Assembly: GCA_900314295.1 (NCBI GenBank)
Contig: OMUU01000114.1
Coordinates: forward strand, 1 to 37,914
Length of the DNA: 37,914 nt
Origin: an uncultured Lachnospiraceae bacterium
GTDB taxonomy: Bacteria > Bacillota > Clostridia > Lachnospirales > Lachnospiraceae
Reading direction: 5' to 3'
The translations under genes and the position numbers were made by a program. The notes beneath the pieces are model-generated. The model was not told the origin of the DNA. It searched no databases and saw nothing but the letters and a program-made list of their open reading frames with translations. Shown one piece after another: positions 12,823 through 21,497 of this stretch (the first letter of the stretch is position 1; every line of letters begins with the position of its first letter).

Positions 12823-14961
12823 ATGAAAAAGAAGAATGTAAAACAGAAAGGCAGAATTCTTCGCCGGAAATCCTGCCGCGGAGGTATTTTTCTGCGGGCT
12901 GTGATTCTCACCGGAGCAATCGGGCTCATAAGCCCGGTTGCTGTATACGCGGAGGATTCTGCCGTTTTATCTTATGCTTCGGACGGTTATCTGGACATCG
13001 GAGAAGAAGTTCCTGCGGCGATCGAGGATTATCCGAATCAAAGCAACCGGTCCATCTTGTTCGGCTCAGCGAATGAGAGTGCCTATCCGGATAATATTAC
13101 AGAGATGCTTCATTCTTATCCGGCGGTTGGCAATCAGAAGTCATATCAGACGTGCTGGGCTTTTTCAACGCTCGGTCTTGCCGAAATCAACATGTGCAGG
13201 AACAATCTGGCGACATCTTCTGCCGATTACAGCGAGCTTGCACTGGCATGGAACACCTATCACACGCAATCCGATCCTCTCGGGGGTACAAAGGGAGATT
13301 CTTCCGAAATTATCGGAAGCCGAAATTATCTGACGCTCGGCGGGAATCCGTGGCTTGCCCTGCTGACACTGTCGCAGTGGTATGGGGCTTCTGAGGAATC
13401 CCTTGCTCCATATGGCAATGCCGCCTCCTTTCATGGGATGAGTGCTTCATCCGCGAGGAATGATGTCTCGCATGCCAGAAATATCTATCGCATCAACATT
13501 TCCGAGAACAGACAGACCGTCAAATCGTATGTCAAATCGAAGGGCGGCGTGCTGATTTCCTATTATGATGACAGTGTCGCGATAAACAACCACTATTCCG
13601 ACAGCTGTGCCTATTATTATCCCGCTTCCGAAGGGTCTGTACCGGCTGCGAATCATTCTGTTCTGATCGTCGGGTGGGATGATAATTTTCCTTCCTCCGC
13701 GTTCCAGAGCGGAAGTCAGCCGTCTTCGAATGGAGCATGGCTGGTTCGCAACAGCTGGGGAGGAAGCTCTGACGTGAACAAGACCGCGTATTTCTGGCTT
13801 TCCTACTCTGACCCGACGATCAGCTCAGCCGCCTATTCCGCTGATTTTTCGTCTGCTGATGACTTTGACAACAATTATCAGTATGATGGATGTCTCGGAA
13901 GTGCTTCCCTGAATGGAAGGAGTTCTGACGGCAGTATCACTGCTGCGAATGTATTCACCGTGAAGGCGGGCAGCAGACAGGAGGTACTGAAGGCAGTCAC
14001 CATCGGGATCAGCACGACCAATACCAACTACAAGGTGGAGGTTTACCGCCAGCTCAGAGATCGTTCAGATCCTCTCAGCGGCATTCCGGTTAAGGAGGCA
14101 GCAGCGGAAGGATACACCGACTGTTCCGGCCTCATCCAGGTGCCACTTTCCAGCCCGGTTCTTCTTGGGAAAGGAGGAACCTTCTCTGTCGTTGTTACAC
14201 TGACAGAGAGCGGGAGCAGCTGCGGATTTCTGGCCGAGGAATCGAAATATATAACCGACGCAAGCGGAAACCGTGTCATTCAGCTGACCTCGTCGTCCGC
14301 TCCGGGAGAGAGCTTTATCCTGCGAAACGGTGTCTGGACGGACCAGTATTCTTCGTCGCTGAACAACATCCGGATCAAGGCTTTCACAGACAACAGCACA
14401 GCCTCTGTATTCTCGGACGTGACGGATCCTTCAAAGTATTATTATTATCCTGTGTACTGGGCAAAGGATGCCCGGATTACCACAGGAACCTCTGCGACAC
14501 AATTCTCACCGGACCGGAAATGCACACGAGCACAGGTGATCACCTTCCTCTATAATCAATATGGAAATGGTGAAATACCGGAATCGGCCGAGGTTGATAA
14601 AATGAAGGATGTGACACCGGGAACCTATTATTACAACGCCGTGAAATGGGCACTGGCACACGGGATAACAAATGGGACCTCTTCCTCTACCTTCAGTCCG
14701 AACAATCCGTGTACGAGAGGGCAGATTGTGACTTTTCTCTATAAAACACTGGGGAACAAATCACCGGGGAACGCAGAAATGTCCTCTTCCGGAAAGAATA
14801 TCTTCTCTGACGTACACAAGGGAAGCTATTACTATGAAGCCGTAAACTGGGCAGCAGCGAAGAACATTACAAGCGGTACATCTCCTTCGACCTTTAGCCC
14901 GGAAAATACCTGTACGAGAGGGCAGTGCATTACATTCCTGTATAATGCGGAGGAACGATAA
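12823..14961 (+). CDS. Secreted papain-family (C1) protease with three SLH domains
   Basis: The 712-residue precursor has a basic N-terminus and signal peptide ending V-Y-A/E at about residue 43. The peptidase domain shows the papain set: oxyanion Gln105 and nucleophile Cys111 in NQKSYQTCWAFST, His278 in NHSVLIVGWDD, and Asn310 in VRNSWGG. A beta-rich region at about 360-520 resembles the lectin-like domain often attached to such clostridial proteases. Three SLH repeats (about 530-580, 595-645 and 660-710; F-S-D-V ... W-A ... I-T-x-G-T ... F-S-P ... C-T-R-x-Q) would hold it on the cell wall through pyruvylated polymer. The ribosome binding site near the ATG is poor. Confidence 0.93.
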   Translation: MKKKNVKQKGRILRRKSCRGGIFLRAVILTGAIGLISPVAVYAEDSAVLSYASDGYLDIGEEVPAAIEDYPNQSNRSILFGSANESAYPDNITEMLHSYPAVGNQKSYQTCWAFSTLGLAEINMCRNNLATSSADYSELALAWNTYHTQSDPLGGTKGDSSEIIGSRNYLTLGGNPWLALLTLSQWYGASEESLAPYGNAASFHGMSASSARNDVSHARNIYRINISENRQTVKSYVKSKGGVLISYYDDSVAINNHYSDSCAYYYPASEGSVPAANHSVLIVGWDDNFPSSAFQSGSQPSSNGAWLVRNSWGGSSDVNKTAYFWLSYSDPTISSAAYSADFSSADDFDNNYQYDGCLGSASLNGRSSDGSITAANVFTVKAGSRQEVLKAVTIGISTTNTNYKVEVYRQLRDRSDPLSGIPVKEAAAEGYTDCSGLIQVPLSSPVLLGKGGTFSVVVTLTESGSSCGFLAEESKYITDASGNRVIQLTSSSAPGESFILRNGVWTDQYSSSLNNIRIKAFTDNSTASVFSDVTDPSKYYYYPVYWAKDARITTGTSATQFSPDRKCTRAQVITFLYNQYGNGEIPESAEVDKMKDVTPGTYYYNAVKWALAHGITNGTSSSTFSPNNPCTRGQIVTFLYKTLGNKSPGNAEMSSSGKNIFSDVHKGSYYYEAVNWAAAKNITSGTSPSTFSPENTCTRGQCITFLYNAEER

Positions 14962-15379: not shown

Positions 15380-15408
15380 TTGAAATAAAAATTGAAACAA
15401 GTTATAGT
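15380..15408 (+). promoter_or_regulatory. Promoter of the decarboxylase operon
   Basis: TTGAAA (15380-15385), a 17-bp spacer and TATAGT (15403-15408) lie 50 bp before the first gene in AT-rich sequence, a good sigma-A site. The leader is about 43 nt and carries GGAGG before the ATG. Confidence 0.75.
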
Positions 15409-15457
15409 ATTATTTGTGAAAAATTTGGTTTTTTAAATCATTTATGGAGGTAGAGAT

Positions 15458-16891
15458 ATGAGCAACAGTACGCAAAGCGCGGCAAGAACGAGAATTAATT
15501 CCCTCCTTGACCCGAGCAGCTTTGTCGAGATCGGAGCAGGCGTCACCGCCAGAAGCACCGATTTCAGCATGTCTGAGAAGAAAGCTCCTTCCGATGGCGT
15601 GATCACGGGCTATGGTCTGATTGACGGCAACCCGGTATACGTCTACAGCCAGGATGCTTCCGTATTGAAAGGAACTGTCGGCGAGATGCATGCGAAGAAA
15701 ATCGTCAGGATTTATGAGCTTGCCATCAAGACAGGCGCTCCTGTAATCGGACTGATCGACTGCGCGGGACTTCGTCTGGAAGAGGCTACCGATGGGCTGA
15801 ATGCATTTGGCCAGATTTACATGGCACAGGCGGACGCATCCGGCGTGGTTCCGCAGATCACCGGTATCTTCGGCACCTGCGGCGGCGGAATGGCAATTGT
15901 TCCTTCCATGGGTGACTTCACATTCATGGAGTCGGAAAAGGCAAAGCTTTTCGTTAATTCCCCCAATGCGCTCTCCGGCAATAATGAATCTTCCTGTGAC
16001 ACCTCTGCGGCGGATTATCAGGCTTCTGAAACCGGTAATGTAGACGGCATCGGTACCGAGTCGGAGATTATCGTGCAGATGCGCAGCCTTGTGAACATGC
16101 TTCCTTCCAATAATGAAGATGACATGTCCTACGCGGAGACGACCGACGATCTGAACCGTGTGAGCGCCGATCTTGTGAACTGCATCGAGGATCCGTCACT
16201 TATGCTTCCGCGCATCAGTGATGACGGCGTTTACTTCGAATCCAAACCCGGCTACGGCCCGGAAATGGCAACAGCGTTTATCAAGCTGAACGGCTATACG
16301 GTAGGCGTTATTGCTAACCGTTCTGCAAAATACGCGGCAAATGGAACCAAGGAAGAGTACGGCAAGGTGATCAGCGCCCGCGGCGCAAAGAAAGCTGCAG
16401 AGTTCGTCAGCTTCTGCGATGCCTTCTCTATTCCGATTGTTACCTTTACCAATGTTACCGGCTTCAAGGCGGTGAAATGCTCCGAGAACAACATGGCCGA
16501 CGCAGTTGCCAAGCTCACCTATGCATTCGCAAACGCAACAACTCCGAAGGTAAATGTAATCACCGGAGAGGCATTCGGCAGCGCATATCTCACCATGAAC
16601 AGCAAGTCTATCGGTGCGGATCTGGTATACGCATGGACAGATGCGAAAATCGGCATGATGGATTCTCTCGCAGCAGCGAAGATCATGTATGACGGCAAGG
16701 ACGGGGAGACCATCAAGGCAGAGGCAGCGAAGTACGATGAGCTTCAGAACAGCGTAAAATCTGCGGCTGCACGCGGATATGTCGATACCGTGATCGATCC
16801 TTCCGAGACGAGAAAATATCTGATTGGTGCGTTTGATATGCTCTTTACCAAGAGAGAGTTCCGCCCCGACAAGAAACACGGAACAGTATAA
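15458..16891 (+). CDS. Biotin-dependent acyl-CoA carboxyltransferase subunit (MmdA/12S type)
   Basis: The 477-residue protein has two crotonase-fold halves of the carboxyl_trans family. The N-half contains KAPSDGVITGYGLIDGNPVY and the oxyanion-hole G-T-C-G-G-G-M-A; the C-half contains NRSAKYAANGTKEEYGKVIS and GEAFGSAYLTMNSKSIGADL. The family moves a carboxyl group between biotin and a CoA thioester (methylmalonyl-, malonyl- or glutaconyl-CoA). At 477 residues it is shorter than typical MmdA (about 515) mainly at the N-terminus. It heads a five-gene operon with GGAGG before the ATG. Which CoA ester it uses cannot be read from the sequence. Confidence 0.88.
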   Translation: MSNSTQSAARTRINSLLDPSSFVEIGAGVTARSTDFSMSEKKAPSDGVITGYGLIDGNPVYVYSQDASVLKGTVGEMHAKKIVRIYELAIKTGAPVIGLIDCAGLRLEEATDGLNAFGQIYMAQADASGVVPQITGIFGTCGGGMAIVPSMGDFTFMESEKAKLFVNSPNALSGNNESSCDTSAADYQASETGNVDGIGTESEIIVQMRSLVNMLPSNNEDDMSYAETTDDLNRVSADLVNCIEDPSLMLPRISDDGVYFESKPGYGPEMATAFIKLNGYTVGVIANRSAKYAANGTKEEYGKVISARGAKKAAEFVSFCDAFSIPIVTFTNVTGFKAVKCSENNMADAVAKLTYAFANATTPKVNVITGEAFGSAYLTMNSKSIGADLVYAWTDAKIGMMDSLAAAKIMYDGKDGETIKAEAAKYDELQNSVKSAAARGYVDTVIDPSETRKYLIGAFDMLFTKREFRPDKKHGTV

Positions 16892-16905
16892 GAGAGGTTG
16901 AAGAT

Positions 16906-17727
16906 ATGAAGAAAATGAAGAAAAAGATATCTGTATTCCTTCTCCTGACGTTATGCATGACCTTCCTGTTCAGTGCAATGCCTGTGTTCGCAAGTGTGGA
17001 CAAGGATACCGCTTCCCAGTATGTGGATTCTGTCACCTCCTTCCTGAATCAGGTATATACACTGAGCGACGATGATCTGAAGAGCCTGGATCAGAACGGA
17101 CAGGGATACTCCGTTATGTATGATGCCTGGATGAAAGACCGAAAAGAGCTCGGCGCATTCAAGAGCGTTGATTCTGTCAATGTAAATCAGAATGATTCGA
17201 GCGACGGCACGATTGTCGTTAATGCGGTCGTATCCTTCGAGCACTATAAATCGGATGTCACAATGTACTTCAACACCGCTGAGACGGTTGTAAACGGGAA
17301 CATCGTTCCGTCAGGGCTCGTCAATTATGAGATGACGACGCAATACAGTCTCGGAGAGAAGATGGCATCTGCAGCCGAGAATATGGCGGTTGGACTGATC
17401 ACCGTGTTCGCGATTCTTGTTATTCTGATTGTAGTCATCAGCCTGTTCCGTTTTATTCCGAATTCGAATGCCAAAAAAGCAACTCAGAATGCAGGAGCAG
17501 CTTCCTCAAAAAAAGCTGAACAGCCGGCGGCAACCAGATCTGCGGCCGTTCCGGCTGGCAAAAACAGCACAGCAGATTCTGCAGTCGGTATAAATGCAAA
17601 CGATCCGGAAATCGCAGCAGTCATTGCTGCAGCAATTGCGGCTGCGATGGAGGAGAATCCTTCCGGAAGCGGCTATGTTGTTCGTTCGGTACGCAAGGTC
17701 GGTACCAGAAGATGGAAGCGCGTATGA
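16906..17727 (+). CDS. OadG-like gamma/delta subunit of Na+-translocating decarboxylase
   Basis: The 273-residue protein has a signal peptide or first helix (MKKMKKKISVFLLLTLCMTF, cleavage near A30), an external alpha/beta domain of about 125 residues, one strong transmembrane helix at about 160-185 (VGLITVFAILVILIVVISLF), an Ala/Lys-rich linker and a cytoplasmic end D-P-E-I-A-A-V-I-A-A-A-I-A-A-A then YVVRSVRKVGTRRWKRV. That end is characteristic of OadG/MmdD proteins, which tie the soluble carboxyltransferase to the membrane pump. The large external domain is longer than in classical OadG (about 85 residues) but known in clostridial versions. It starts 15 bp after the first gene. Confidence 0.88.
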   Translation: MKKMKKKISVFLLLTLCMTFLFSAMPVFASVDKDTASQYVDSVTSFLNQVYTLSDDDLKSLDQNGQGYSVMYDAWMKDRKELGAFKSVDSVNVNQNDSSDGTIVVNAVVSFEHYKSDVTMYFNTAETVVNGNIVPSGLVNYEMTTQYSLGEKMASAAENMAVGLITVFAILVILIVVISLFRFIPNSNAKKATQNAGAASSKKAEQPAATRSAAVPAGKNSTADSAVGINANDPEIAAVIAAAIAAAMEENPSGSGYVVRSVRKVGTRRWKRV

Positions 17728-17939
17728 GTGTTTACTGTATAAGCTCTTCGAAAACGCAGAAGGACTCGTCGCACGCGAAGCGCGCGTAAGAGGCCGGATG
17801 CGATTTCGAAGGCAACAGGTATGAGGATGAAGCGCGAACGCGCGAAATCCGAATACCTGTAGGATTGCGGCAGTGCGAAGCACGGAGCAATCCGTAGCTT
17901 ATACAGTTTGTGACACAAAATATCGTATGAGTGTTTACT
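17721..17939. repeat. Structured repeat element, complete copy (family A)
   Basis: A 16-bp direct repeat CGTATGAGTGTTTACT flanks the element (17721-17736 and 17924-17939). Just inside are 12-bp perfect inverted ends ACTGTATAAGCT (17734-17745) and AGCTTATACAGT (17896-17907). Internal hairpins are CAGGTAT/ATACCTG (17816-17822, 17853-17859, with inner GGAT/ATCC) and GGATTGC/GCAATCC (17862-17868, 17887-17893). The left half recurs upstream of purF and the right half before the 5S gene and after icd. It lies inside the operon, so it is transcribed. The first direct repeat includes the OadG stop codon. Confidence 0.75.
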
Positions 17940-18008
17940 CTGCAAGAGGACCACTTTCCTGACGTTTCGCGTATATCTCACGTTTAATTTAAGGAGGAAA
18001 TTCTAATT

Positions 18009-18416
18009 ATGAAGAATTACACAATTACAGTGAATGGTACCGTATATCAGGTTACCGTTGAAGAAGGGATTACAAATGGTGCGGTTCAGCAGGCGGCTCC
18101 GGCTGCAGCACCAGCACCCGCTCCGGCTGCGGCTCCGGCCCCGGCTGCAGCACCTGCACCCGCTCCGGCAGCAGCTCCGGCTCCGGCAGCTGGAGCTGCG
18201 GGATCCACACCGGTAACGGCTTCCGTACCCGGAAAGATCGTAAGAGTTGATTCCGCGGTAGGCTCATCCGTATCCGCAGGAGATCCGATTGTTACACTGG
18301 AAGCTATGAAGATGGAGATTCCGGTTGTCGCTCCAAAGGACGGCACCGTCGCTTCCATTAACGTTGCCGTCGGTGATGCGGTAGAATCCGGTGACGTTCT
18401 TGCTACAATGAACTGA
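18009..18416 (+). CDS. Biotin carboxyl carrier protein of the decarboxylase complex
   Basis: The 135-residue protein has a short N-terminal domain (MKNYTITVNGTVYQVTVEEG), a flexible Ala/Pro linker at about 29-64, and a biotinyl domain with E-A-M-K-M-E, so Lys101 is the biotin attachment site. It corresponds to MmdC or the 1.3S transcarboxylase subunit and shuttles CO2 from the carboxyltransferases to the membrane pump. AAGGAGG precedes the ATG. It lies 281 bp after the oadG-like gene, a gap filled by the family A repeat. Confidence 0.95.
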   Translation: MKNYTITVNGTVYQVTVEEGITNGAVQQAAPAAAPAPAPAAAPAPAAAPAPAPAAAPAPAAGAAGSTPVTASVPGKIVRVDSAVGSSVSAGDPIVTLEAMKMEIPVVAPKDGTVASINVAVGDAVESGDVLATMN

Positions 18417-18456
18417 TTCCTGATAGATTCTGCACATTTCACCCGGAGGTAATAAA

Positions 18457-19611
18457 ATGATAGCAACAACCTTAAACAATCTGATTCATCAGACTGCGTT
18501 TTTCAATATTTCCTGGGGCAATGTCATCATGATCGTTGTTGCGTTTGTATTTCTTTATCTTGCAATCGCTCATGATTTTGAACCGCTTCTGCTGGTTCCC
18601 ATTGCATTCGGAATGCTCCTTGTAAATATTTATCCCGACATCATGGCGGCACCGACCGTAACGGCTTCCGGTTCCAGCCAGGCCGGCGGTCTGCTCTGGT
18701 ACTTCTTCCAGCTCGACGGATGGTCCATCCTGCCGTCCCTGATCTTCATGGGCGTCGGCGCGATGACAGACTTTGGTCCGCTCATTGCGAACCCGATCTC
18801 CTTCCTGATGGGCGCTGCAGCACAGCTCGGTATCTATTTTGCATATTTTCTGGCTATTTTCATGGGCTTCAATGGAAAGGCAGCGGCAGCGATCTCCATC
18901 ATCGGAGGCGCTGACGGTCCTACCTCCATCTTCCTCTGCGGAAAGCTGGGTCAGACGGCACTGATGGGCCCGATCGCCGTGGCGGCATATTCCTATATGT
19001 CCCTGGTTCCGATCATCCAGCCGCCGGTCATGAAGCTTCTGACCACGGAGAAGGAGCGTAAGATCAAAATGGCACAGCTTCGTCCGGTTTCCAAGCTGGA
19101 GAAGATCCTGTTCCCGATCGTCATCACCGTAGTCGTTTGTCTGATTCTTCCGACGACAGCTCCGCTTGTCGGTATGCTGATGCTCGGAAACCTCTTCCGT
19201 GAGAGCGGAGTCGTAAAACAGCTGACCGAGACCGCATCCAACGCCCTGATGTACATCGTCGTTATTCTTCTGGGAACCTCTGTCGGCGCAACGACAAGTG
19301 CCGAGGCATTTCTGAATGCAGATACTCTGAAGATTGTCGTCCTCGGACTGGTGGCATTCATCTTCGGTACAGCCGGAGGTGTTCTTCTCGGAAAGCTTCT
19401 GTGCTTTATCACGCATGGCAAGATCAATCCGCTGATCGGTTCCGCAGGCGTATCCGCCGTTCCGATGGCTGCCCGTGTATCGCAGAAGGTCGGTGCCGAG
19501 GCAGACCCGACAAACTTCCTGCTGATGCACGCAATGGGGCCGAACGTAGCCGGTGTTATCGGTACCGCGGTAGCCGCCGGTACCTTCATGGCTGTATACG
19601 GTGTGAAGTAA
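18457..19611 (+). CDS. oadB: Na+-translocating decarboxylase beta subunit
   Basis: The 384-residue integral membrane protein carries the conserved GGADGPTSIFL segment (the Asp is required for decarboxylation coupled to Na+ export in OadB) and the C-terminal signature NPLIGSAGVSAVPMAARVSQ and H-A-M-G-P-N-V-A-G-V-I-G. It decarboxylates carboxybiotin and pumps Na+ outward, also called MmdB or GcdB in related complexes. GGAGG is 8 bp before the ATG, and the gene starts 40 bp after the biotin carrier. Confidence 0.95.
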   Translation: MIATTLNNLIHQTAFFNISWGNVIMIVVAFVFLYLAIAHDFEPLLLVPIAFGMLLVNIYPDIMAAPTVTASGSSQAGGLLWYFFQLDGWSILPSLIFMGVGAMTDFGPLIANPISFLMGAAAQLGIYFAYFLAIFMGFNGKAAAAISIIGGADGPTSIFLCGKLGQTALMGPIAVAAYSYMSLVPIIQPPVMKLLTTEKERKIKMAQLRPVSKLEKILFPIVITVVVCLILPTTAPLVGMLMLGNLFRESGVVKQLTETASNALMYIVVILLGTSVGATTSAEAFLNADTLKIVVLGLVAFIFGTAGGVLLGKLLCFITHGKINPLIGSAGVSAVPMAARVSQKVGAEADPTNFLLMHAMGPNVAGVIGTAVAAGTFMAVYGVK

Positions 19612-19630
19612 TTCCAGAGCTGTCTGAGCC

Positions 19631-19850
19631 AGCATAGGACTATACCACGCGAGTGAGGCGGTACACCTATGCTTCAGAGTTGCTTGCACTTGGCATACAT
19701 AATATCTTGTACCAAAAATGATTACGTCTCCCCACGTAGTGACGCGTAAGCGGCACGGAAGTGCGAATATGCGCGAGCGGTGAGCCGCATCCGCACACAC
19801 TTTGTGTGATGCGGTGGGACGAACGCCGCGACAGACCGACGAAGTCGGTC
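19631..19850. repeat. Intra-operon spacer with three strong hairpins
   Basis: The spacer between oadB and the 5S gene is 357 bp. It contains AGCATAGG/CCTATGCT (19631-19638, 19666-19673), CCGCAT-ccg-CACACA/TGTGTGATGCGG (19785-19799, 19803-19814) and the perfect GACCGAC-gaa-GTCGGTC (19834-19850). None has a T-tract, so they look like RNA processing or stability elements or repeat DNA, not terminators. A family A right half follows directly. Confidence 0.7.
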
Positions 19851-19855
19851 CCTAT

Positions 19856-19934
19856 AGGATTGCGTGAGTGCGAATCGCAGAGCAATCCGCAGCTTATACT
19901 GTTTGTGACACCATGCATTGCATGCGTTTTTACT
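19856..19934. repeat. Family A repeat, right half
   Basis: The sequence aligns with 17861-17939 almost base for base: GGATTGC ... GCAATCC hairpin, then AGCTTATAC(A/T)GTTTGTGACAC and a tail ending GTTTTTACT. It lies 35 bp before the 5S gene start. Confidence 0.8.
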
Positions 19935-19968
19935 GTGGGGACGCCACACATATATAGGAGAGCTTAGA

Positions 19969-21384
19969 ATGGCTGAAATTGAGAAAAAACCGGTTAAAAT
20001 CATGGAGACAATTCTTCGTGATGCGCATCAGTCACTGATTGCGACTCGTATGCCCACGTCTGAGATGCTTCCGATCGTTGATAAAATGGATCAGGTCGGC
20101 TATCATGCCGTAGAGTGCTGGGGCGGTGCGACCTTTGACTCCTGTCTTCGTTTCCTTCATGAGGACCCGTGGGAGAGACTGCGCAAGCTTCGTGACGGCT
20201 TCAAGCACACCAAGCTGCAGATGCTGTTCCGTGGCCAGAACATCCTCGGATACAAGCCCTATGCAGATGATGTTGTAGAGTATTTTGTACAGAAATCTGT
20301 TGCAAACGGCATCGACATTATCCGTATCTTTGACTGCATGAATGATCTGCGCAACCTTGAGACCTGTGTAAAAGCAGCAAAGAAAGAGAAGGGTGCGGAA
20401 GCCCAGGTAGCCCTGTCCTACACGCTCGGCGATTCCTACACACTGGATTACTGGACCTCCAAGGCAAAAGCCATCGAGGAGATGGGCGCAGATTCCATCT
20501 GCATCAAGGACATGGCAGGTCTGCTTCTTCCTTATGAGGCGACCAAGCTCGTAACTGCTCTGAAGGAAGCGACCAGCCTTCCGATCGAGCTTCACACCCA
20601 CTACACCTCCGGCGTAGCTTCCATGACCTATCTGAAGGCGGTAGAGGCAGGTGTCGACATCATCGATACCGCAATGTCTCCGTTCGCAATGGGAACTTCC
20701 CAGCCGGCTACTGAGGTTATGGTCAAGACCTTCCAGGGCACACCATATGACACCGGTCTGGATATGAAGCTTCTTGAGGAGATTGCTGATTACTTCCGTC
20801 CGTACAGAGATGAATGCCTCGACAACGGACTGCTGAACCCGAAGAACATGGGCGTCAACATCAAGACGCTTGTATATCAGGTACCGGGCGGCATGCTTTC
20901 GAACCTGACCAGTCAGCTGAAGCAGCAGCACGCAGAGGACAAATACTACGATGTTCTGGAGGAGGTTCCGAAGGTTCGCAAGGATCTCGGAAATCCGCCT
21001 CTGGTAACACCTTCTTCTCAGATCGTCGGAACTCAGGCTGTATTCAACGTCATCATGGGTGAGCGTTACAAGATGATCACACAGGAGACGAAGGATATCC
21101 TCGCCGGCAAATATGGCAAGACCACTGATCCGGTAAATCCGGAGCTGCAGAAGAAGGCCCTCGGCGATACAAAGCCGATCACCCATCGTCCCGCAGACGA
21201 CATTGCTCCTGAGATGGACAAGCTCGAGAAAGAGGTTGCCGCTTATAAGGAGCAGCCGGAGGATACGCTGAGCTACGCACTGTTCCCACAGGTTGCAATG
21301 GACTTCTTCAAGTACAGAGACGCCCAGAAGACCGGCGTGGACGCATCCAAGGGAGACAAAGAAGACAAGGCTTACCCAGTTTGA
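19969..21384 (+). CDS. Pyruvate/oxaloacetate carboxyltransferase (5S/PycB/OadA type, no biotin domain)
   Basis: The start is ATG 19969 with AGGAGA 7 bp upstream; an earlier ATG at 19918 lies in repeat DNA. The 471-residue protein begins with the HMGL-like TIM barrel (ETILRDAHQSLIATRMPTSE, with the Asp metal ligand). It has C-I-K-D-M-A-G, where the Lys is usually carbamylated, and H-T-H-Y-T-S-G (metal-binding His pair), then a PYC_OADA C-domain. OadA proteins of about 590 residues carry their own biotin domain; this one ends before it, so it uses the carrier encoded two genes earlier. It exchanges carboxyl between biotin and pyruvate/oxaloacetate. Confidence 0.93.
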   Translation: MAEIEKKPVKIMETILRDAHQSLIATRMPTSEMLPIVDKMDQVGYHAVECWGGATFDSCLRFLHEDPWERLRKLRDGFKHTKLQMLFRGQNILGYKPYADDVVEYFVQKSVANGIDIIRIFDCMNDLRNLETCVKAAKKEKGAEAQVALSYTLGDSYTLDYWTSKAKAIEEMGADSICIKDMAGLLLPYEATKLVTALKEATSLPIELHTHYTSGVASMTYLKAVEAGVDIIDTAMSPFAMGTSQPATEVMVKTFQGTPYDTGLDMKLLEEIADYFRPYRDECLDNGLLNPKNMGVNIKTLVYQVPGGMLSNLTSQLKQQHAEDKYYDVLEEVPKVRKDLGNPPLVTPSSQIVGTQAVFNVIMGERYKMITQETKDILAGKYGKTTDPVNPELQKKALGDTKPITHRPADDIAPEMDKLEKEVAAYKEQPEDTLSYALFPQVAMDFFKYRDAQKTGVDASKGDKEDKAYPV

Positions 21385-21443
21385 ATTCTTTCCCGGCAGC
21401 GCTCATAATTGCCTGAAAAATATACGGTAGTACAAACTAGCAA

Positions 21444-21497
21444 ATCGCAGAGGAACCCATGTAATGATACATGGGATCCTCTGCGATCTCTTTTTAT
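21444..21497 (+). terminator. Strong terminator of the decarboxylase operon
   Basis: ATCGCAGAGGA pairs with TCCTCTGCGAT (11 bp) and inside it CCCATGTA pairs with TACATGGG (8 bp) around an ATGA loop. CTCTTTTTAT follows. It is by far the strongest hairpin in the window. Confidence 0.92.

Follow-up and report, generated by a model that had tools for sequence, protein, structure and literature searches.

What does an operon do that encodes two carboxyltransferase (CT) homologues, one biotin carrier, and one Na+ pump? The question is raised by positions 15380–21497 of a 37,914-nucleotide stretch of DNA, here called the window, from an uncultured Lachnospiraceae bacterium (contig OMUU01000114.1, assembly GCA_900314295.1). 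Many members of a dominant gut family carry the operon, and annotation leaves undecided whether it encodes an oxaloacetate or a methylmalonyl-CoA pump. The sequence-only reading had recognized here a CoA-type CT, an OadG-like anchor, a biotin carrier, an OadB pump, and a 5S/PycB-type CT lacking a biotin domain, and had proposed that they form a membrane transcarboxylase. Its gene content stands: profile matches place all five genes there on the + strand, in the order A-G-C-B-S (the letters denote these five genes throughout, L numbers denote loci, and G numbers denote genomes).

15458..16891, + strand: A, divergent homologue of the 12S/MmdA/PccB-type carboxyltransferases, 477 residues (Carboxyl_trans PF01039, 348.6 bits)
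16906..17727, + strand: G, OadG-like anchor, 273 residues (OAD_gamma PF04277; weak PF13026)
18009..18416, + strand: C, biotin carrier, 135 residues, with an Ala/Pro linker and the biotin site in EAMKM (Biotin_lipoyl PF00364; motif)
18457..19611, + strand: B, OadB-type carboxybiotin decarboxylase and Na+ pump, 384 residues (TIGR01109, 480 bits, cut-off 190.6)
19969..21384, + strand: S, 5S/OadA-type CT without a biotin domain, 471 residues from its ATG (NF008985 PRK12331, oxaloacetate decarboxylase alpha, 751 bits, cut-off 718)

Comparison of these sequences makes it fairly probable that the operon encodes a split-type Na+-pumping oxaloacetate decarboxylase in which A has been repurposed, probably as a non-classical subunit. 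Every function of the Na+-translocating oxaloacetate decarboxylase OadABG is represented among S, C, B, and G: there is an OadA/5S-type alpha with its metal site, a beta subunit above the curated cut-off, a biotin carrier, and an OadG anchor, and both S and B pass curated models. The window differs in that alpha is split into S and C, an additional CT homologue (A) leads the operon, and G bears an extra N-terminal domain. In such a complex, S would transfer the carboxyl group of oxaloacetate to the biotin on C, with pyruvate as the other product; the carboxybiotin would swing to B, which would decarboxylate it and export Na+, with G holding the soluble part at B. The oxaloacetate would most likely come from phosphoenolpyruvate (PEP) through a PEP carboxykinase encoded elsewhere in the genome (contig C102, matching the ATP-type family), so that the route from PEP to pyruvate would give ATP as well as a Na+ gradient. 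Neither PEP carboxylase, nor a frame of pyruvate carboxylase length, nor methylmalonyl-CoA mutase was found in the genome.

S and B have kept the expected residues. The window's S retains 100 of the 102 positions invariant in 41 distant S proteins (40 loci fetched from the phylum plus Monoglobus), and across 69 rows 94 of the 102 are conserved at the 95% level or above. At the metal site expected from the 5S structure, every S row of three sets (68, 33, and 41 rows) has the Asp, the Lys, and both His residues; S aligns with 5S, and a profile search of S found no biotin domain. B retains 104 of the 113 invariants of 9 distant reference rows, with 98 of the 113 at the 95% level, and one should bear in mind that the reference sets for A, S, and B differ in breadth. 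B also carries GGADGPT, which corresponds by motif only to the tip bearing Asp203, a beta-subunit residue whose role is taken from the available part of PMC7274780.

A does not look, by its sequence, like a classical acyl-CoA carboxyltransferase. On TIGR01117 (mmdA) it scores 396 bits against a cut-off of 999, and the earlier label of 12S/MmdA-like holds at superfamily level only. As a yardstick, we used 18 canonical CTs, 14 from relatives' genomes and those of Acetoanaerobium, Methylobacterium, Streptomyces, and Rhizobium from plasmid records. They share 95 invariant columns, and each, when left out in turn, keeps 95 of the 95 to 107 columns then invariant. The window's A retains 60 of the 95 and has lost 35; the 81 rows formed by the window and 80 related loci retain 56–65 (mean 61). 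Among 24 further altered rows (four from the same family, 20 from other families of the order), 23 keep 46–75, and the A of L142 keeps 39 but is cut by a contig end.

Taken alone, this count is partly circular, because the canonical set was chosen by likeness and setting. An out-of-sample test is provided by five A proteins from other families, found only via S, which keep 93–94 of the 95; the A of Monoglobus keeps all 95. With all 24 intact rows included, 91 columns are invariant, of which the 81 rows keep 50, relax 30, and replace 11, the canonical residue being swapped in these 11 for a different one fixed in at least 77 of the 81 rows. Within the 81 rows, 195 columns are at least 95% conserved. 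Measured against seven intact relatives alone, the window's A keeps 111 of 236 positions.

The changes fall in the signature stretches SGGAR, LGG..H, ANQP, PGF..G, IIRHGAK, and RK.YGGAY, whereas GG at 143–144, G374, R106, and D101 are retained. According to the sequence-only reading, its model would fail if either CT had lost catalytic residues; A has lost 35 of 95 alignment invariants, which may include catalytic ones. At these 35 positions the distant GcdA type has the canonical residue in 13 and the window's residue in 4, and the 13 imply that part of the change in A is loss. A itself is, on sequence criteria, not a GcdA-type CT: it scores 71–82 bits against solved GcdA chains and 332 bits against the beta subunit of propionyl-CoA carboxylase, and the GcdA-type rows L144 and L146 lie far outside A in the tree. 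For A, structure prediction gives a confident model (pLDDT 82) that matches the beta subunit of propionyl-CoA carboxylase (TMq 0.88) and the 12S subunit of transcarboxylase (TMq 0.87), which suggests that the fold is retained.

An altered protein may simply be a decaying one, but the ratio of nonsynonymous to synonymous substitution rates (dN/dS) for A is 0.020–0.062 in the 12 close, partly overlapping pairs listed (of 13; some with dS >1). These values and the open frames rule out a decaying pseudogene, and A is, to judge from them, under strong purifying selection. Across 68 complete-gene rows, mean identity is 0.694 for A, 0.709 for C, 0.810 for S, and 0.858 for B; of 2278 locus pairs, 2277 show lower identity in A than in S, and 2273 lower identity in A than in B. 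In three intact composites, by contrast, A, B, and S keep pace in divergence (84, 85, and 85% identity in L176–L191; 67, 65, and 66% in L170–L176; 68, 61, and 66% in L170–L191). In a tree of 64 rows, for which 13 of the 80 loci were used, a single branch with 98/100 support parts altered from intact A; L132, L142, and L143 form long branches of uncertain placement. The split into intact and altered A points to a selected subunit in the energy metabolism of these bacteria.

How constant is the operon? A contig scan with A returned 158 stretches encoding relatives, with titles mostly of Lachnospiraceae, Eubacterium, or Clostridia, and the best 80 were retained. In 71 of these 80 the genes follow the order A-C-B-S, and in the remaining nine the contig ends 78–2665 bases after A; an OadG tail pattern lies between A and C in 70 of the 71 ordered loci, L082 being without it. 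Such constancy of order and content excludes chance and bears out the earlier view that two CT homologues, one carrier, and one pump belong to one operon. The nearest named loci are those of a Eubacterium sp. and an uncultured eubacterium metagenome-assembled genome (95% identity in A) and of [Eubacterium] cellulosolvens (79%). Since the 80 loci were picked by likeness to A, they are uninformative on how often A is absent. Among 145 whole genomes of the order, A is matched at E 1e-3 in 127, in some through other carboxyltransferases only; at E 1e-20, B is matched in 111 and S in 117.

The operon can indeed be regarded as a composite of known sets, as the sequence-only reading had it: relatives hold Mmd-like (A-C-B), oxaloacetate decarboxylase-like (C-B-S), transcarboxylase-like (A-C-S), and composite (A-C-B-S) sets. 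Six loci (L151–L156) have C-B-S without A, L157 has S, C, and B in a different order, and L158 has S alone. In L151 (genome G068), A is gone and a 128-residue OadG, C, B, and S are still there. A tie between loss of A and loss of fatty-acid synthesis, considered for G045, G054, and G068, was dropped, as only G068 shows an apparent in-place loss. The three f11 genomes with L129–L131 carry extra deletions in A, yet C-B-S is retained; further deletions in A occur in L129–L132 and L143, with C and S kept. Separately, L132, L142, and L143 are A-C-S sets without an adjacent pump, with strongly diverged A proteins (36, 32, and 28% identity; that of L142 incomplete, as stated).

To see intact A beside S one has to leave the order. 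From a 249-genome sample of the phylum, 214 of them matching S, we fetched 40 S loci in 39 genomes, picked for high identity and short frames. Two of the 40 are intact A-C-B-S sets (L176, L191) and three are intact A-C-S sets without the pump (L174, L179, L181). C-B-S occurs without A in L187, L203, and L207 (the last with a weak 28% CT match 6 kb away), L188 and L196 hold C, B, and S in other arrangements, and S stands alone in 30, some on short stretches. In L176, L179, L181, L191, and the Mmd-like locus L166, A has a methylmalonyl-CoA mutase gene no more than 2 kb away. The mutase is present in four of the five genomes tested in which intact A adjoins S, G322 being the exception, and in four others that have S with no A beside it (G340, G369, G189, G146). 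In the order, the mutase was found in 2 of 145 genomes (G100 and G107), whose only A match is canonical; it was not found in the window's genome or in any of the 145 with altered A. The association is thus between the mutase and an intact A beside S. A composite membrane transcarboxylase is accordingly plausible in lineages with intact A beside S and the mutase, which it fits much better, and poorly supported in the window's lineage. The state of A, intact or altered, may make it possible to tell propionate-pathway complexes and oxaloacetate pumps apart by sequence.

We suggest that a composite ancestor most likely had a functional acyl-CoA carboxyltransferase from which A descends, and that in the window's order the protein would have been remodelled into a non-classical subunit. 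Its role would most likely be structural or regulatory, for instance binding acyl-CoA without carboxyl transfer. Three observations favour such a role: change falls mainly on A, the f11 deletions spare C-B-S, and G068 lacks A. More speculatively, and with rather less confidence, one may picture that in Lachnospiraceae and neighbouring families a former acyl-CoA CT now serves an oxaloacetate-driven Na+ pump as a pseudo-carboxyltransferase subunit; it might sense an acyl-CoA, for example acetyl-, malonyl-, or butyryl-CoA, and so couple gating of the pump to the cell's carbon state.

Several points weigh against an oxaloacetate pump with a non-catalytic A. The retained GG at 143–144, R106, and D101, with the fold, leave room for catalysis by A on some acyl-CoA, and the fixed replacements, which could also mark a new substrate, make a structural or regulatory role uncertain. 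In two of the 12 pairs, A shows no higher dN/dS than S. When the tree is rooted with GcdA, the branching among the altered groups and the intact group is not resolved, so that a single origin of altered A is not established. Absence of the mutase proves little alone, because 12 of the 14 canonical CTs from the 145 genomes, none of them adjoining S, also sit in genomes where no mutase was found; an intact CT therefore need not serve methylmalonyl-CoA. Gene absences in the window's genome (2.69 Mb, 190 contigs) are provisional, since it is 96.8% complete, and the enzymatic activity of the operon is predicted from sequence.

The direction of the reaction also deserves caution. Frames of pyruvate carboxylase length (977–1193 residues) occur in 8 of the 145 genomes, in 5 of the 33 without S versus 3 of the 112 with S (Fisher p 0.015, uncorrected for kinship or genome gaps), which is a hint, again counting against the preferred direction, that the complex may run towards oxaloacetate. 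We consider it unlikely that a Na+ gradient drives pyruvate to oxaloacetate for biosynthesis in place of pyruvate carboxylase. No PEP carboxylase was found in any of the 145 genomes; the available text of PMC4478896 suggests oxaloacetate decarboxylase as a possible source of oxaloacetate in butyrivibrios. However, the window's genome has a PEP carboxykinase, and PMC8100219 describes the decarboxylation as strongly downhill and irreversible.

Similarly improbable is that A works as a carboxyltransferase on a new CoA substrate, which would make the complex a Na+-pumping decarboxylase with two entry points. The eleven fixed replacements, the conservation within the 81 rows, and the strong purifying selection are what one would expect of it; the further deletions in A while C and S stay, the loss of A in G068, and the failure to find a candidate pathway speak against it.

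One might also ask whether A supplies malonyl-CoA for fatty acids. This is ruled out by 13 A-bearing genomes (G005, G006, G008, G011, G013, G015, G017, G022, G026, G056, G059, G064, and G081; seven of them at least 90% complete) in which a search at E 1e-50 found no FabF and the AccD matches were all weak (E 1e-7 to 1e-12); the weak match is A itself in G011 and G022 and presumably so in the other eleven. As A is retained there, it is not present for fatty-acid synthesis. The window's genome has FabF and an AccD match, under the cut-off, in a 575-residue frame (contig C83) that may be AccD fused with AccA. As a separate observation, six genomes (G032, G046, G060, G069, G075, and G079) have FabF, no proper AccD match, and a canonical PccB-type CT, which possibly replaces acetyl-CoA carboxylase.

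The least likely explanation is the original one, in which A and S are both active and share C, exchanging carboxyl groups between oxaloacetate/pyruvate and an acyl-CoA with B balancing by Na+: it is in keeping with the conservation of the operon as a unit, the selection on A and its predicted normal fold, and the intact sets near a mutase (A-C-B-S in L176 and L191, A-C-S in L179 and L181), but the 35 lost invariants, the failure to find a mutase in any altered-A genome among the 145, and the exclusion of malonyl-CoA supply make it doubtful here.

The operon can be compared with several described systems. The methylmalonyl-CoA decarboxylase MmdABCD shares the order A-G-C-B, as in the Phascolarctobacterium genes in the available text of PMC7568257; the window differs in its A, far under the mmdA cut-off, in the added S, and in that no mutase was found in a genome of the completeness given above. 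Homologues of all three subunits of the Propionibacterium transcarboxylase (12S, 1.3S, and 5S) are present, with S and C supplying the 5S and 1.3S partners. Unlike that enzyme, the window has the pump B and the anchor G, and the motifs of A, which would stand for a 12S with the canonical invariants, are altered. In the Clostridia strain BL-4, a CT, a carrier, and an oxaloacetate decarboxylase are clustered and a "possible methylmalonyl-CoA transcarboxylase" is proposed although a mutase was not found; its CT is 33% identical to 12S and its description, in the part of PMC7764203 at hand, includes no pump (the likeness is by description, not by sequence). Available portions of further papers propose a transcarboxylase in Geobacter bemidjiensis (PMC2996986), name a propionyl-CoA:oxaloacetate transcarboxylase in Pelotomaculum (PMC6046458), and annotate "oxaloacetate or methylmalonyl-CoA decarboxylase" in Anaeropeptidivorans (PMC9682168). 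We recognized no description of an altered CT subunit in a Na+ decarboxylase in a literature search whose coverage lacked most subscription journals, and the accessible text of PMC6163223, PMC9403272, PMC4148979, and PMC6046458 does not describe an altered A with a pump.

That the five genes form one transcription unit, as the sequence-only reading stated, is likely from the sequence, the operon being bracketed by promoter-like and terminator-like sites. The gaps A-G, G-C, C-B, and B-S measure 14, 281, 40, and 357 nucleotides. The following features lie around and between the genes.

15380..15408, + strand: promoter-like site, TTGAAA-17-TATAGT, 10/12 (consensus scan alone)
17739..17902, + strand: Clostridiales-1 RNA element, RF01699, in the G-C gap (92.6 bits, gathering score 48)
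19768..19898, + strand: weak, probably degraded Clostridiales-1 RNA element in the B-S gap (32.9 bits, under the gathering score of 48)
21473..21490, + strand: terminator-like hairpin and T run 3' of S (consensus scan alone)

These signals should be read with care: the terminator scan is close to chance (8 observed versus 6.3 expected), promoter-like sites are numerous (16 versus 7.0), and one terminator-like site falls inside the B-S gap (19912–19924). The Clostridiales-1 RNA has 56 matches at E 1e-3 in the window's genome, 37 of them above the gathering score and some in tandem, and no match above that score was found at the corresponding gaps in 6 relatives; the element behaves like a dispersed repeat, not like a single small RNA gene.

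G has a signal-like N-terminus, a domain of about 110 residues presumed to lie outside, one transmembrane helix, an Ala/Pro linker, and a VVRS tail. Its N-terminal domain (16906–17380), presumably extracellular, evolves quickly, and the N-terminus is lipobox-like in several of the 17 aligned rows; the domain has a weak DUF3887 match and is absent from the OadG of the A-less L151. The predicted structure of G is weak (pLDDT 65), with no Foldseek match at E 1e-3 and an insignificant likeness to NTF2/cystatin-like folds. The genome encodes a second OadB-type subunit on contig C62 (L159:6651-7871), 47% identical to B; no carrier or CT was seen in the 8.4 kb stretch covered, and it was rejected as a second full pump. 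OadB matches of about 45–50% are found in many relatives, and the one inspected, L165, stands alone. Upstream of the operon, positions 12823–14961 encode a papain-like protease with a lectin-like domain and three S-layer homology repeats.

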